This document shows positions 7,688 to 49,230 of a DNA stretch of 64,000 nt, piece by piece. The notes under the pieces are model-generated. The model did no database searches and was not told the origin of the DNA. It saw only the letters and a list, made by a program, of their open reading frames with translations. Numbering within the stretch: the first letter of the stretch is position 1; every line of letters starts with the position of its first letter. Source of the DNA: Kineosporiaceae bacterium SCSIO 59966 (GTDB lineage Bacteria > Actinomycetota > Actinomycetes > Actinomycetales > SCSIO-59966); the NCBI GenBank assembly GCA_020881835.1, contig CP052876.1, positions 1,116,001 to 1,180,000 on the forward strand, given 5' to 3'. The translations under genes and the position numbers were made by a program.

Positions 7688-7760
7688 GGCCGGGCGCCGC
7701 CGTCCCGTACCCGACCAGCCGAGACACCCCCGTTCGTGATCTGCCGGAAATCCCCTCTCG

Positions 7761-7901
7761 GTGATCATGCAGTCCCGCCACCCACCGGCCACCGTCCGGC
7801 TCACAGAGTGCTGGGTTGGTGGCGCGACACGCCGGCCAGGCTGTGCCGAGCGCAGCATTCTGTGGTCGAGGCGCGGCAGGGTGGCGGGACTGCATGATCA
7901 C
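7761..7901. repeat. Interspersed palindromic repeat, copy A
   Basis: This sits between the convergent parE and parC genes. The ends are perfect inverted 23-mers: 7761-7783 (begins GTGATCATGCAGTCCCGCCA) and 7879-7901 (its exact reverse complement). Inside is a hairpin core whose outer arms are CACAGAGTGCTG (7802-7813) and CAGCATTCTGTG (7853-7864). The flanks extend the symmetry (CCCCTCTCG on the left, CGGAGGGG on the right). A partial motif (TGATCACCGAGGGG) follows at about 7919-7932, overlapping the end of parC. It shares its termini and core with copies at 18.2 and 48.8 kb. Confidence 0.9.
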
Positions 7902-18160: not shown

Positions 18161-18405
18161 GGGTGGCGGGATTGCATGAACGCCTCATGGCCGCTGGCGG
18201 CCACCCCGAGAGATGAAAACAGGCCGTGGTGGCCATGGCAGCCCACGTCGGGTCAGGCGCCTCGGCCACAGAATGCTGCGTTCGGCGCATCTTGGCCGGC
18301 GTGTCGCGCCAGCAACCCAGCATTCTGGGATCGGGCGGTGGGGCTGGGTGGCGGGACTGCATGATCACGAGTGGGTCGTGCGGGGTGGCGGGACTGCATG
18401 ATCAC
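18161..18405. repeat. Interspersed palindromic repeat, copy B
   Basis: This fills the gap between the convergent M20 peptidase and nitroreductase genes. It starts with a variant terminus at 18161-18188 (GGGTGGCGGGATTGCATGAA, then CGCCTC). An extra module of about 85 bp follows to about 18263. The hairpin core has arms CACAGAATGCTG (18267-18278) and CAGCATTCTG (18318-18327). Two direct copies of the standard 23-mer then follow at 18346-18368 and 18383-18405. A partial motif TGATCACGGAGGGGG (from 18424) overlaps the end of the nitroreductase gene. The extra module recurs inverted in copy C. Confidence 0.9.
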
Positions 18406-18426
18406 GGAGGGGGGGTTTTCGACTGA

Positions 18427-19047
18427 TCACGGAGGGGGTGGGGTGCCGAAGCGGCCGACGTGGGTGACCTCGTGAACGGGGCGGCGGCCGCGGCGCAGGC
18501 TGGGGGAGCGGCGGTCCGGCGCGGGGTAGCCCACGCTCACCACGCCGACCGGGCGCCGTGAGTCCGGCACGCCGAACGCCTCCCGGAACCGCTCGACCTG
18601 CCGGGGCCCGCCGACCCCGAAGAAGCAGCTGCCCAGGCCGGCGTCGGTGGCCGTGAGCAGCATGAGCAGCGCCGCCATCCCGGTGTCCACGTCCCAGTAG
18701 GGCACCGGCCAGCGCGCCTCGTCCCGGTCCGTCCACCCCTTGTCCGGCTCGGCGTACCGGTCGAGGTAGGCGTCACGGTGGCTCAGGCACACCACGAGCA
18801 GCGGAGCGGTCCGCATCCCGCGCAGCCAGGAGTCCGGCTCGGCGTCCGGGTCGGTGGTGGCCCGCCAGTACCGTTCCCTGTCCGCCGGGTCGGCCAGCAC
18901 GAGGAAGTCCCAGCCCTGGGTGAAACCGGCGCTCGGCGCCCGCACCGCAGCCTGCAGCAGGCGGTCGACGACCTCCGGCGGCACTGGTCGGGTCGGGTCG
19001 TAGGCGCGGACCATCCGGCGACGGCGGATGACCTCGGCGAGCTCCAT
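18427..19047 (-). CDS. Nitroreductase family protein
   Basis: This 206-residue FMN-dependent nitroreductase-fold protein begins MELAEVIRRRRMVRAYDP, where the Arg-rich turn binds FMN phosphate. APSAGFTQGWDFLVL near residue 38 is the second FMN contact. TGMAALLMLLTATDAGLGSCFF and VVSVGYPAPD complete the family pattern. The family reduces nitro compounds, quinones or F420/flavin-type substrates with NAD(P)H; the specific substrate is not visible. It is divergent from the GNAT/acyl-CoA synthetase fusion, with 61 bp between starts. Confidence 0.85.
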   Translation of the reverse strand: MELAEVIRRRRMVRAYDPTRPVPPEVVDRLLQAAVRAPSAGFTQGWDFLVLADPADRERYWRATTDPDAEPDSWLRGMRTAPLLVVCLSHRDAYLDRYAEPDKGWTDRDEARWPVPYWDVDTGMAALLMLLTATDAGLGSCFFGVGGPRQVERFREAFGVPDSRRPVGVVSVGYPAPDRRSPSLRRGRRPVHEVTHVGRFGTPPPP

Positions 19048-36012: not shown

Positions 36013-36068
36013 CTCTGGAGGCTTTCCGGGGTCTCGAGGCGCGTTGAGACCCCGAAAAGCCTCCAGAG
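36013..36068 (+). terminator. Long hairpin terminator after the methyltransferase gene
   Basis: Arms 36013-36035 and 36046-36068 are 23 bp each and pair with a single G:U, around a 10-nt loop. The arms begin CTCTGGAGGC and end GCCTCCAGAG. It lies 9 bp after the stop. It should end the kimA-methyltransferase transcript before the acnA promoter. Confidence 0.85.
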
Positions 36069-39699: not shown

Positions 39700-40602
39700 C
39701 TACTCCTTCACCGCACCCTCGGTGGTGCTCATAATCTGCCGCTGAAAGACGAAGAACAGCACGGCGACAGGGATCGTCATGAGGAATGCGGCTGCCAGCT
39801 TCAGCGGGTACTGCGTCCCCTGGCTGATGGCGCCGGACGCCAGGCTGGCAACGCCCTTCGTGAGCACGGCCAGGTCTGGGTCGGAGGTGACGACAATGAA
39901 GTGTGCGAGTTCGTTCCAGGACCCTTGGAAGGACAAGATGACGAGCGTGATGAGCGCCGGGCGCGCCATCGGCAGCACGATGGACCAGTAGGTGCGGAAC
40001 AAGCCTGCCCCGTCGATCTTTGCTGCCTCCTCGACGCTGCGCGGGATCGACTCGAAGAAGTTCTTCATGATGAAGATGCCGGCGGCGTCCGCGAGCAGCG
40101 GCAGTACCATGCCCGCGTACGAGTTGTAGATCCCGAGCTGGTTCACCACGAGAAATTTCGGGATGAGCAGCACGACGCCGGGTACCGCCATCACAGCGAC
40201 CAAACCGGCGAACACCGCACCTCGGCCACGAAACTCCAGGCGGGCCAGGGCGTAGCCGGCGAGGGAGTTGAAGAACACACGCCCCGCGGTGACGGCCAGT
40301 GTGACGACGACCGAGTTCATAGTCCACGTCGGGAAGTCGGACTGAGGACTGGTGAAGAGAAACTCGTAGGCTGCCCCCGTCACTGGGTTCGGCACGAGTG
40401 ACAAGGGATTTTGCGCCGCCTCGGCATCGGTCTTGAACGACGACGCGATCTGTATGAGGAAAGGGAAGACGTAGACGACAGCGATAGACACGAGTAGGGC
40501 GTACCGGAAGGCAGTTCCCCAGGTCATCGGCCGGCGATTCGGCTGCCGTGTGGAGACGGTCTCCGTGGCCGGGGTGCCGGTTGTGGCCAGGCTCGCGCTC
40601 AC
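39700..40602 (-). CDS. Carbohydrate ABC transporter permease (MalG type)
   Basis: This is a 300-residue inner-membrane permease with six predicted helices. The EAA loop that contacts the ATPase is RSVEEAAKIDGAGLFRTYWS near residue 205. It starts at GTG 40602, overlapping the MalF-type gene by GTGA. It pairs with that gene to form the channel of a CUT1-family sugar importer. The three transporter genes and the regulator show fewer G/C-ending codons than neighbouring blocks. Confidence 0.9.
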   Translation of the reverse strand: MSASLATTGTPATETVSTRQPNRRPMTWGTAFRYALLVSIAVVYVFPFLIQIASSFKTDAEAAQNPLSLVPNPVTGAAYEFLFTSPQSDFPTWTMNSVVVTLAVTAGRVFFNSLAGYALARLEFRGRGAVFAGLVAVMAVPGVVLLIPKFLVVNQLGIYNSYAGMVLPLLADAAGIFIMKNFFESIPRSVEEAAKIDGAGLFRTYWSIVLPMARPALITLVILSFQGSWNELAHFIVVTSDPDLAVLTKGVASLASGAISQGTQYPLKLAAAFLMTIPVAVLFFVFQRQIMSTTEGAVKE

Positions 40603-41693
40603 GAGGGCCTTCTCTCGTCAACTGGCTGTAGAAAGCGTTTGCGGCGTGGAACAGTGGTGCGCTCCCGCAGAACGACGCGCTGCAGGATCGTGAAGGTGAC
40701 GATGATGGCGAACAGAATGAATGCAATCGCCGCTCCCTCCCCCCAGCGCTGACTGCCGAACGACGCCGTGTACGACAGGTAGGCGGGAGTTACGGTCGTC
40801 TTCGCCGGACCACCGTCCGTGCCGACGTAGATCTGGTCGAAGACCTGCCAGGTGCCGATGAGCCCAAGCGTGATGACGGTGAAGAGCGTTGGTCTTAGCT
40901 GAGGCAGTGTCACCCGGAAGAACCGCTGGCGACTCGTTGCGCCGTCGACCATGGCCGCTTCCTCCAACTCGGCCGGGATGTTCTGCAGGGCGGCGATGAA
41001 CAACAGCATGAACGTTCCGGACGTCGTGAAAATCGCCATGGTAATGAGGGTGACCATGGCGACACTGGGCCCGGCCAACCACTCCCACCATGTGACGCCG
41101 AGCAGGCCGCCGGTCGTGAGGGCCGCCGGCGCTGAGTCGACGCCCATACCTGCGAGCGCGATGTGCAGCACACCACGGGGATCGTTGAACCAGTTCGGCC
41201 CCTCAATACTTAGGAACGAGAGCAGTTTGTTGACCGCGCCCGTAGAACTGAACAGGAAGAGGAAAACGACGGTGATCGCTACTGAGCTGGTTACCGACGG
41301 AAAGTAGAAGGCGGTGCGGAAAAGCCCGCGGCCACGGATCGCCCGACGACCCACCAGCATGGCCAGGGTCAACGACACCACCGTCTGAAGTGGTACGACG
41401 AGTACCACGTACCAGAGGTTGTTACGCAGTGAGGTACCGAAGTCTCGGGTGGTGAGCCCGCCCCCCGTTAGGAGCGCCTCGTAGTTGTCGGCTCCGACGA
41501 AAGAGACGTCGCCAGCCAGGGGACTGCCCCGGCCGTCCCAGTCGGAGACGCTGACCCAGAGGGCCATCAGCACCGGAATGACGAGGAAGAGGCCAAGGAT
41601 TATCAGGGCGGGTGCTGTGAACAACCATCCCGCCGCGGTCTCGCGGCTCCTCATGGAGGAGCCGCGAGACCGTTGGGATGCCACTGGCATCAC
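40599..41693 (-). CDS. Carbohydrate ABC transporter permease (MalF type)
   Basis: This is a 364-residue permease with an extended periplasmic-facing loop. The EAA motif is AELEEAAMVDGATSRQRFFR near residue 245. N-terminal WLFTAPALIILGLFLVIPVL is the first helix. GTG 41693 (GTGA overlap with the binding-protein stop) or the nearby ATG codons could be the start. There is an unusual Trp-rich inserted region (LLGVTWWEWLAGPSV) near residue 200. It works with the adjacent MalG-type permease; no ATPase gene is present in the window. Confidence 0.9.
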   Translation of the reverse strand: MMPVASQRSRGSSMRSRETAAGWLFTAPALIILGLFLVIPVLMALWVSVSDWDGRGSPLAGDVSFVGADNYEALLTGGGLTTRDFGTSLRNNLWYVVLVVPLQTVVSLTLAMLVGRRAIRGRGLFRTAFYFPSVTSSVAITVVFLFLFSSTGAVNKLLSFLSIEGPNWFNDPRGVLHIALAGMGVDSAPAALTTGGLLGVTWWEWLAGPSVAMVTLITMAIFTTSGTFMLLFIAALQNIPAELEEAAMVDGATSRQRFFRVTLPQLRPTLFTVITLGLIGTWQVFDQIYVGTDGGPAKTTVTPAYLSYTASFGSQRWGEGAAIAFILFAIIVTFTILQRVVLRERTTVPRRKRFLQPVDERRPS

Positions 41694-42943
41694 TGTGCCC
41701 CCAGCACAGCCTCGAGGTTGGCTTGGGTGCTGGACAGGATGGCCGCCGGGTCGGCGCTCTCCAGCGACTCCAGCTGTGCGTTGAGGTCGGCGATGACGTC
41801 GCTCACGCCGGCGGCGTTCGGCGGCGTCGTGGCGACGTCTGCCTGCTCAATGAAGGCTTCGAACTGCGGAAACTCGTCGCGGAAGGCTTCCTCTGCTGAC
41901 TGCACCGACGGCATTACACCGAATGCCCGCGCGAACTCCATCTGCTGCTCGGGTTGCGTGAGGAAGGCAACGAGGTCTGCGGCGGCCTCAGGGCTCTCGC
42001 TGTCCGCAGCGATGCCCCAGCAGTTCGTGAACGACAGGGTGCCAGCACCTGCCGGGCCCTCGGGGAGCGGAGCCACGAGGTAATCCACGTCCGGGTAATC
42101 GTTGTTCATGGCCCCGGCGATCCAGTTCCCTTCGATCGTCATGGCTGCTCTGCCCGTGCCGAAGGCCTCACCTCCCCAACCGGCTCCGACCTCGCCAGTG
42201 AACGCCATCGAACCTTCGGCGAGCATGTCCTTCACGAAGGTGAGGGCCTCGAGGTTCTCGGGGGAGTCGGCCGTGGCCTCGCCTTCGGTGACTAAGCCTC
42301 CGCCGGCCTGCTCCATGAACGCCCCTAGCCGTTGGTACTCCGAGCTGGTGACGAGCCCGACCTGGTCGCCGGTCGTCAGTGTGGCCGCGACGGTCCGCAG
42401 CTCTTCCCACGTGGTCGGCACGTCGTCCTCGGTGAGCCCGGCGGCTTCCCACGCCTCCGTGTTGATGATGAGGCCAAGCGTCGAGAAGTCCTTAGGGGCG
42501 CAGTAGAACTGGCCTTCGTAAGTAAAAGCATCGACCAGGTTGGGGTAGAAGTCGGAGGCGTTCTCGAGATCGGCGGCGTACGGCAGGAGCGAGCCATTGT
42601 CGGCGTAGCCGGCCAGTTGGTCCGACCCCACATAGAAGACGTCCGGAGGGTCCCCTGCGGCGAAGCCCTGGCTCAGCTCCTGAGCCAGGTCAGTGGCCGC
42701 GACAACCTCGACCTGGTGACCGGAGTCCTCGGCGAAGGCCGCTGCGGCGGCCGTGACGGCCTCGGTCTCGGCTGGACCGGACGAGCCAATGAGCATCCGC
42801 AGGGAAGCCGTGTCGGCGTCGGCGGCGTCGCCGCCGCCGGTGCTGTCAACGGTGGGCTCCTCCTCGAAGCCGCTCCCACCGCAGGCGGCGAGGCTCACGG
42901 CAGTCAGGCACGCGACGAGGGCGACAGTAGGGCGGCGGGTCAT
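41690..42943 (-). CDS. Sugar ABC transporter substrate-binding lipoprotein
   Basis: This is a 417-residue extracellular solute-binding protein, family 1. The signal peptide MTRRPTVALVACLTAVSLAA ends at a lipobox LAAC, so the protein should be lipid-anchored at Cys21. The body shows ADLAQELSQGFAAGDPPDVF-type lobe contacts, and WGIAADSESPEAAADLVAFL near residue 310 is typical of sugar binders. AAGGAGG lies five bases before ATG 42943. A malto-oligosaccharide or alpha-glucoside ligand is plausible given the divergent debranching-type enzyme, but that is inference. Confidence 0.9.
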   Translation of the reverse strand: MTRRPTVALVACLTAVSLAACGGSGFEEEPTVDSTGGGDAADADTASLRMLIGSSGPAETEAVTAAAAAFAEDSGHQVEVVAATDLAQELSQGFAAGDPPDVFYVGSDQLAGYADNGSLLPYAADLENASDFYPNLVDAFTYEGQFYCAPKDFSTLGLIINTEAWEAAGLTEDDVPTTWEELRTVAATLTTGDQVGLVTSSEYQRLGAFMEQAGGGLVTEGEATADSPENLEALTFVKDMLAEGSMAFTGEVGAGWGGEAFGTGRAAMTIEGNWIAGAMNNDYPDVDYLVAPLPEGPAGAGTLSFTNCWGIAADSESPEAAADLVAFLTQPEQQMEFARAFGVMPSVQSAEEAFRDEFPQFEAFIEQADVATTPPNAAGVSDVIADLNAQLESLESADPAAILSSTQANLEAVLGAQ

Positions 42944-42985
42944 GCTTCCTCCTTGTGCGGTGGTGCTTGCTCCGTACGGGTGAAC

Positions 42986-43993
42986 TCAGACGGTGGTGCT
43001 GCCGCGCTCGACGAGTGACGGCTCGAGCAGGACGTGAACGGACGGTGCGTTTGGTTCATGGATGCTGGTGAGGACCTGGTCCAAGCAGGCCTGGGCGGCC
43101 TGGGTGAGGGGCTGAGCGATGCTGGTGAGGTCCACGGCGGCCGCTGCCGGGGTGTCGTCGAAGCCGACGACGGCGAGACGGCGCTCACTGCCGGAACGGT
43201 CGAGCGCCAGCAGCGCCCCGAGAGCGAGGGAGTCGCTCGCGCACACCACTGCGCTCGGCGCGTCGGGCAGGTTCAGAAGCCGCTCAGTGGCTTCTGCCCC
43301 CTGCAGGATGCCGTCGTCAACCATGACGTCCAGCTCCGCGGCCGCTGGGAGACTGGCGTCCGCGAGCCCTAGGCGCCAGCCGTCGCGCCGGTCATCTCCG
43401 ACGCCGGATCCCGTGGGCCAGCCGAGAAAGGCGATTCGCCGGTGGCCGCGTGCCGTTAGCTGCGTGACCGCGTGGCGGGTTCCAGCGGCTCCGTCGATAT
43501 CCACCCAGGAGTGCGGGGCAGGCGGGGCGCCCCACGGCCGTCCAAAGGTGGAGAAGGGGATTCCATGTTCGCTTAGCCACGCCGTCCGTGGGTCGCCGTG
43601 GTGGGTACTGGTGAGCACGATGCCGTCGATGTCGCTCGTGGACACGAGGTCCCCGAAGGTCTGGATCTCCTGGTGGTCGTCGTCCGCGGTATAGAGCAGC
43701 ACGCGGTATCCCGCGCGCTGCGCGCCTTCGACGAAGGCGTGCAGAAAGCGATCGAGGACGACGCCGTTAACGCCGTCTCGGTGCGGCTCCATCCGCATCG
43801 CGAGGGTCCGCGAGCGCTGCGTGCGCAGCTGCTGCGCCGCTCGGGACGGACGGTAGCCCAGGTCGGAGATAACGGCATGCACCCGGGCTCGGGTGGCAGG
43901 CCGCACTCGGTCCGGCGAGTTGAGAACGTTGCTCACCGTCTGGCGTGACACGCCGGCGGCGCGTGCGACCATCTCCAGCGTGGGTCGTGCCAT
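42986..43993 (-). CDS. LacI family transcriptional regulator
   Basis: This is a 335-residue repressor. The helix-turn-helix is at residues 5-24 (LEMVARAAGVSRQTVSNVLN), with the hinge at SRAAQQLRTQRSR. The effector-binding domain has the periplasmic-binding-protein fold (GIVLTSTHHGD, AVVCASDSLALGALLALDR). GAGGAGA precedes the ATG. It is first in line with the ABC importer genes 42 bp downstream and divergent from the debranching enzyme, so it likely controls both through the two operator-like sites upstream. Confidence 0.93.
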   Translation of the reverse strand: MARPTLEMVARAAGVSRQTVSNVLNSPDRVRPATRARVHAVISDLGYRPSRAAQQLRTQRSRTLAMRMEPHRDGVNGVVLDRFLHAFVEGAQRAGYRVLLYTADDDHQEIQTFGDLVSTSDIDGIVLTSTHHGDPRTAWLSEHGIPFSTFGRPWGAPPAPHSWVDIDGAAGTRHAVTQLTARGHRRIAFLGWPTGSGVGDDRRDGWRLGLADASLPAAAELDVMVDDGILQGAEATERLLNLPDAPSAVVCASDSLALGALLALDRSGSERRLAVVGFDDTPAAAAVDLTSIAQPLTQAAQACLDQVLTSIHEPNAPSVHVLLEPSLVERGSTTV

Positions 43994-48818: not shown

Positions 48819-49230
48819 GTGATCATGCAGTTCCGCCACCCCGCACGACCCACCCGTGATCATGCAGTCCCGCCACCCCCGTTACGCGTGATCCGTCCGG
48901 CCCCCGTCCGTGATCATGCAGTCCCGCCACCCACCGGCCACCGTCGGCTCGCAGGATGCTGGCTTGGTGGCGGGACACGCCGGCCAAGCTGCGCCAAACG
49001 CAGCATTCTGTGGTGGAGGCGCCCGACCCGACGTGGGCTGCCATGGCCACCAAGGCCTGCTTTCGTCTTTCGGGGCGGCCGCGAGCGGCCGTGAGGCGTT
49101 CATGCAATGCCGCCACCCCGGTCCGCAGAATGCCTGGGTTCGTGGCGCGCCACGCGGGACCAGCTGGGCCGAGTCCAGCACTGTGTGGGCGCGTGGGGGC
49201 GCTTGCGGGGTGGCGGGATTGCATGATCAC
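48819..49230. repeat. Interspersed palindromic repeat, copy C (compound)
   Basis: This is the largest copy, between convergent dxs and the hypothetical at 49252. Three left-type 23-mers occur at 48819-48841 (one mismatch), 48856-48878 and 48910-48932. A first hairpin core spans about 48950-49014 (CAGGATGCTG ... CAGCATTCTG). The extra module follows, inverted relative to copy B, to a variant terminus at 49091-49119. A second degenerate core follows at about 49123-49190 (GCAGAATGCCTG ... CAGCACTGTG). The closing inverted 23-mer is at 49208-49230. The whole looks like two elements fused in opposite orientations. Confidence 0.9.

Follow-up and report, generated by a model that had tools for sequence, protein, structure and literature searches.

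Intergenic repeat families that enclose and covary with free-standing DUF559/AbiEi-like nuclease genes in Actinomycetes suggest a REPtron-like system

Introduction

The REP, BIME and REPIN repeats together with the TnpA_REP (RAYT) enzyme constitute the "REPtron" (PMC8266576, PMC3116915). A second group relevant to the present work is that of the EDxHD homing endonucleases, to which a DUF559 gene has previously been assigned (PMC9403480) and of which I-Bth0305I is an example (PMC3943268). The DNA analyzed here, termed the window, is a 64-kb stretch of the genome of Kineosporiaceae bacterium SCSIO 59966, in which a sequence-only reading had placed three intergenic loci (A, B and C) sharing a 23-bp motif in both orientations. 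The window covers positions 1116001-1180000 of its contig. All three loci are found where that reading placed them, and their comparison with the rest of this genome and with related genomes indicates that they probably belong to a REPtron-like system, the repeats being the dispersed partner and recognition sequences of trans-acting free-standing nucleases.

Results

The repeat unit common to the three loci is a 23-mer, GTGATCATGCARTCCCGCCACCC, termed F1, and matches to its core 20-mer (GTGATCATGCARTCCCGCCA) number nine in the window compared with 0.02 expected by chance. Locus A has a left F1 unit at 7761-7783 on the plus strand and a right F1 unit at 7879-7901 on the minus strand, which form an exact inverted pair with 95 bp between them as had been described, with an F2 hairpin module at 7801-7864 (+) and a diverged sister unit (GTGATC with a different tail) placed outermost at 7736-7755 (+). 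The units of locus B all lie on the minus strand and comprise a diverged F1 unit (GCGTTCATGCAATCCCGCC) at 18161-18183, an F2 hairpin module at 18267-18329, two F1 units at 18346-18368 and 18383-18405 in tandem at 37 bp, and a diverged sister unit (GTGATCAGTCGA) at 18411-18430. Locus C contains three F1 units at 48819-48841, 48856-48878 and 48910-48932, an F2 hairpin module at 48949-49012, a diverged F1 unit (GCGTTCATGCAATGCCGCC) at 49096-49118 and a second, diverged F2 module at 49124-49187, all on the plus strand, with an F1 unit at the right end at 49208-49230 (-). The hairpin core that the sequence-only reading had included in the motif family is indeed shared, its arms CAGAATGCTG and CAGCATTCTG or close variants being present at all three loci, but it represents a distinct family, F2, which has copies and a nuclease of its own, and the window loci are nested mixtures of F1 and F2. 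Gene calls made here bear out the convergent arrangement proposed for the three gaps, whose flanking genes include those for gyrase/topoisomerase IV subunits B and A (locus A), an M20 peptidase (locus B) and DXP synthase (locus C), and the MIMQSRHP-type open reading frames in the repeats are spurious, as had been stated.

The sister unit, GTGATCAGTCGACAATCCCC, has GTGATCA in common with F1 and another tail; its copies at loci A and B are two window examples, and 11 matches occur in a 464-kb sample of the genome, often outermost in F1 arrays. A conserved stretch (GTGGTGGAGGCGCCCGACCCGACGTGGGCTGCCATGGC...GGCCGTGAGGCGTTCATGCA) follows the F2 module and recurs between F2 and a diverged F1 unit (L085 7754-7867; window 49012-49118). 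A third family, F3, is represented in the window by a near-perfect hairpin (CTGGAGGCTTTCCGGGGTCTCG, an inverted pair, without assigned strand) at 36015-36066. Elsewhere in the window, positions 39700-43993 have a G+C content of 0.66 compared with about 0.74, are possibly acquired, carry a binding-protein-dependent ABC transporter and a LacI-type regulator, and adjoin a glycogen-debranching-like gene.

Across the genome (a single contig of 3,095,448 bp) the core 20-mer has 387 exact copies, 190 forward and 197 reverse, and 427 copies when up to 2 mismatches are allowed, whereas the reversed-pattern control has none. The earlier extrapolation from three loci to many copies per genome thus holds, and the motif is not confined to the window loci. 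The repeats had not been recognized as a named family, in agreement with the lack of any Rfam match in the window at gathering score and of any literature match by sequence in the papers searched. No named IS is matched either, yet an element that bears a nuclease gene does have F1 at its ends (see below). The sequence-only reading was right about a high-copy intergenic family; what it missed, as lying outside the window, is that several families are mixed at these loci and that four families of this genome are each tied to a nuclease paralog of their own.

Gene context was assessed in the 464-kb sample, made up of 20 stretches and the window, with genes called using a simple codon model. No F1 lies inside a called gene in this sample, and F1 is mostly in convergent gaps: 15 of the 19 convergent gaps of at least 120 bp contain it, as do 12 of the 58 tandem and 4 of the 42 divergent ones. 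Forward copies always precede reverse copies in the convergent gaps, and the stop codon of several genes is the TGA within GTGATCATG of F1. A strict rule that F1 is sense-oriented downstream of a gene is not absolute, since copies in tandem gaps are 22 sense and 13 antisense. All 23 positions are nearly invariant across the 113 copies in the sample, which have C-rich flanks and no conserved GTAG or CGTC tag beside them. The arrays have a locus-specific period and a spacer identity of 0.91 within an array compared with 0.55 between arrays, a pattern that local tandem duplication would produce.

The preference for convergent gaps raises the explanation that the repeats are bidirectional transcription terminators selected by the host and not mobile DNA. 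The strong hairpins formed by the repeats fit such a role, as does one syntenic gap where, in a related genome, the repeat hairpin is missing and another palindrome, short and G+C-rich, is present. The 23 positions are, however, invariant even in one-direction arrays, which are unable to form such a hairpin, clean insertions are observed (see below), and the link to nuclease genes is left unexplained. A reading as terminators only is weakened by the one-direction arrays and the insertions, and we regard it as quite unlikely.

The exact F1 21-mer is found in the named genomes searched only on two contigs of one metagenome-assembled genome. Moving the search to the 11-mer core GTGATCATGCA revealed a wider family with 413 copies in this genome and 384, 347, 150, 106, 90, 72, 68, 34 and 24 copies in other genomes of the same order. 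The enrichment is extreme but scattered, the core being near zero in most genomes of the order, and a sample of the phylum shows, at its depth, no enrichment beyond the order. The tail following the core differs genome by genome, and strong hairpins are formed by paired copies.

In two core-rich genomes of other families, homologous nuclease genes are enclosed by arrays with wide spacing. The present genome has one close homolog, a 313-amino acid protein 57% identical to one of these nucleases, whose gene (G000:C1:2095740-2096681) is located outside the window between valS and clpX. Four forward F1 copies lie on one side of this gene and two reverse copies on the other; the first forward copy supplies the valS stop codon, and the two reverse copies start directly after the stop codon of the nuclease gene. 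The nuclease is found in 8 of the 10 core-rich genomes (P=1.6e-5), and within one genus it is present in both core-rich species (347 and 384 copies) and absent from two poor species (10 copies each). The core-rich genomes G032 and G066 have only distant nuclease paralogs, none of which is enclosed by the core; most simply, the cognate nuclease would have been lost, or for G032 would fall in an assembly gap. No nuclease relative is found in viral contigs, and plasmids give only distant DUF559 matches.

The F1-enclosed nuclease matches the Pfam families AbiEi_1 and REase_MTES_1575 and not a Y1 transposase. Among 34 homologs the domain matches are REase_MTES_1575 (31), AbiEi_1 (20), AbiEi_4 (10) and DUF559 (8), and PF04480 by itself recovers only one of the four paralogs of this genome. 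Residues E204, D237, E248, H255, D264 and R267 are invariant in the 34 homologs; the first five are putative catalytic residues, and in our reading E204, D237, H255 and D264 would correspond to the named EDxHD motif. The predicted EDxHD/Vsr-like fold rests on these residues together with non-significant PDB profile hits over the catalytic region (3r3p, E=0.47; 1cw0, E=1.0), the best of which include I-Bth0305I and Vsr.

Two further explanations were considered. The repeats could be operator sites for autoregulation by the AbiEi-type winged helix, dispersed copies being decoys or a regulon, and AbiEi_4, which is matched by those 10 of the 34 homologs, has the description of a transcriptional regulator. 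There are arrays downstream of the gene as well, however, and dispersed copies prefer gene ends over starts, making this reading highly improbable. Alternatively, the repeats could be a signal for self-recognition, DNA uptake or chromosome organization, with the nuclease perhaps acting on DNA that lacks it. PADLOC AbiEi models do match the nuclease, and the near-identical copies number in the hundreds, their common core having variants specific to each genome, but the near-equal numbers of forward and reverse copies (190 and 197) show no strand bias and the motif is wholly absent from most relatives; we give this explanation almost no credence.

The pairing of repeat and nuclease extends to other families in this genome, which has four nuclease paralogs, each enclosed on both sides by its own repeat family; the three paralogs distant from the F1-enclosed nuclease have no F1 around them. 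F2 encloses the paralog at 1.249 Mb, F3 that at 0.552 Mb (G000:C1:551918) and F4 that at 2.759 Mb. F2 is an approximately 62-bp module with a well conserved left half, CAGAATGCTGGGTTGGTGGCGCGACACGCCG, then a variable stretch and then CAGCATTCTG; it has about 34 copies in 464 kb, some with no F1 nearby, and its covariation is weak because most stem pairs hardly vary. F3 has a few dispersed copies in the genome sample. F4, GGTTCGCACACCCAGCGGC, surrounds the paralog G000:C1:2758610 (L108 1331-1400 and 2482-2551) and has one dispersed hairpin in the sample (L097 16884-16953). As controls, none of 319 ordinary genes is enclosed by F1, and none of the DUF222-HNH nuclease loci of this genome has any one of F1-F4 on both of its sides, which rules out HNH/DUF222 genes as the repeat partner here. 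In another genome, G658 (L219 14580-16502), the cognate arrays also enclose a gene of DUF222-HNH type (13E12-like), showing that other nucleases can occupy these ends.

Enclosure was then scored automatically for homologs from the order and class by comparing the left flank with the reverse complement of the right flank (score at least 18). Inverted repeats enclose 45 of 57 homologs compared with 1.5% of 600 random windows (P about 5e-71), a null that is heavy-tailed (99th percentile 38.5), so that single loci with modest scores are not to be leaned on. The repeat sequence varies among lineages and tracks the protein (Mantel r=0.58, P=2e-4; 37 homologs, whose repeats were selected by hand among those that the automated flank comparison gave, so that bias is possible). 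The label GATC(A/T)(A/T)G requires 2 changes on the protein tree compared with 11.4 when shuffled, and 0 of 500 shuffles are as low. The neighbors of the nuclease genes are convergent in 26 of 33 cases and divergent in none, and the gene order valS-nuclease-clpX is common to G000, G072, G006 and G100, which suggests that the nuclease gene has long stayed at a single site during drift of the repeat. Copies at a distance from the gene are present in the samples of G076, G765 and G658, and 80-140-kb samples of G077, G132, G716 and G838 have no convincing dispersed cognate copies. Dispersal is thus not automatic, and the element apparently occurs in some genomes as a single copy and in others in amplified form.

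These data also bear on the possibility that the nuclease genes are passengers, with the repeats spreading or being selected for some other reason, such as a terminator role, and the nuclease element inserting into repeats already present. Such an order of events would accommodate the repeats without a cognate nuclease in G032 and G066, the preference for convergent gaps common to nuclease genes and repeats, and the DUF222-HNH-type gene within an array in G658. It accounts poorly for the several genomes in which the motif lies only around the gene in the samples and there is no evident repeat to insert into, for the one-to-one pairing of paralogs of one genome with different families, and for the covariation of motif and protein. 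We consider the passenger explanation unlikely.

Same-genus genomes provide clean empty sites of the kind that the sequence-only reading had proposed looking for in close relatives. In G106 a hairpin of 129 bp is inserted between the two stop codons of a tight convergent gap; this insertion is absent from G064 and G134, and the whole nuclease element is absent from G134. The nuclease gene of G064 is inverted between its repeats relative to that of G106, a close species (the loci compared are L188 8645-9826 and L190 9962-11084). Both repeat arms in G106 carry an identical short extra insert (CCCAGCCTTCGGCCGGGAGGTGCCCCCA), pointing to arm-to-arm homogenization. No target-site duplication is evident at the one exact empty site at which it could be resolved.

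Discussion

The REPtron-like reading can be set out as follows. Each repeat family would be the recognition sequence of one nuclease, composed of an AbiEi-type winged-helix part and an EDxHD/Vsr-like DUF559/REase_MTES_1575 part. The full element would consist of a nuclease gene with its own repeat around it in inverted arrays, the valS/clpX gap being an example, and the three window loci would be its gene-less relatives. The nuclease may bind the repeat and nick or cut nearby, after which repair would place copies of the repeat ends in other gaps, either alone or together with the gene, and the arrays would then enlarge through local tandem duplication. Copies may persist mainly in convergent gaps since they do least harm there, possibly serving as two-way terminators. 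Counting against this explanation are G032 and G066, the four genomes lacking convincing dispersal in the samples, the HNH-type array of G658, the lack of an observed target-site duplication and a fold assignment that draws on non-significant PDB hits.

More broadly, we lean toward a mobile system that is class-wide in the Actinomycetes, in which a short repeat evolves together with a free-standing EDxHD-type nuclease and is spread by it, so that gene-less copies, up to hundreds of them, come to lie in convergent gaps. Such a system would be a counterpart of REP/RAYT, independent and enzymatically unrelated, with each nuclease lineage evolving its own recognition sequence. Repeats linked to nucleases in this manner are not described in the open-access papers searched, and an earlier description elsewhere, as in bioRxiv or a subscription journal, is possible. 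If correct, the proposal would give a function and a partner to the very common actinobacterial "DUF559 / AbiEi-like" proteins, explain many uncatalogued intergenic repeats, and add another, independent example to be used in addressing the open question of what allows populations of repeats to persist in bacteria. The likely recognition sequence would stand beside each nuclease gene, making dozens of specificities readable from genomes and testable.

Comparison with known systems places these repeats apart from each of them. DNA uptake sequences occur as many near-identical copies, with inverted pairs at gene ends and species-specific variants, and the repeats described here have the same properties; they differ in that none lies within called genes in the sample and in their one-to-one tie to nuclease paralogs. 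MITEs and IS ends likewise have gene-less copies with inverted ends, an autonomous relative and clean empty sites, whereas the ends here are arrays of 1-5 units, with no target-site duplication seen (at one exact empty site) and no known transposase. The nuclease shares similar invariant acidic and histidine residues with EDxHD homing endonucleases such as I-Bth0305I, with no significant sequence similarity to solved structures obtained, and unlike these enzymes it is free-standing, outside any intron or intein, and enclosed by repeat arrays with dispersed gene-less copies. In common with the REPtron are short palindromic intergenic repeats in hundreds of copies, arranged as inverse pairs and tandems, and a gene for a trans-acting enzyme lying among its own repeats. 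Differences from the REPtron occur in the lack of a conserved GTAG tag in F1, in the enzyme, which is an EDxHD-like DUF559 nuclease here and a tyrosine HUH transposase in the REPtron, and in the enclosure of the gene by inverted arrays with a preference for convergent gaps. The system works like a REPtron but is not one on the features tested, the tag and the class of enzyme beside the repeats.
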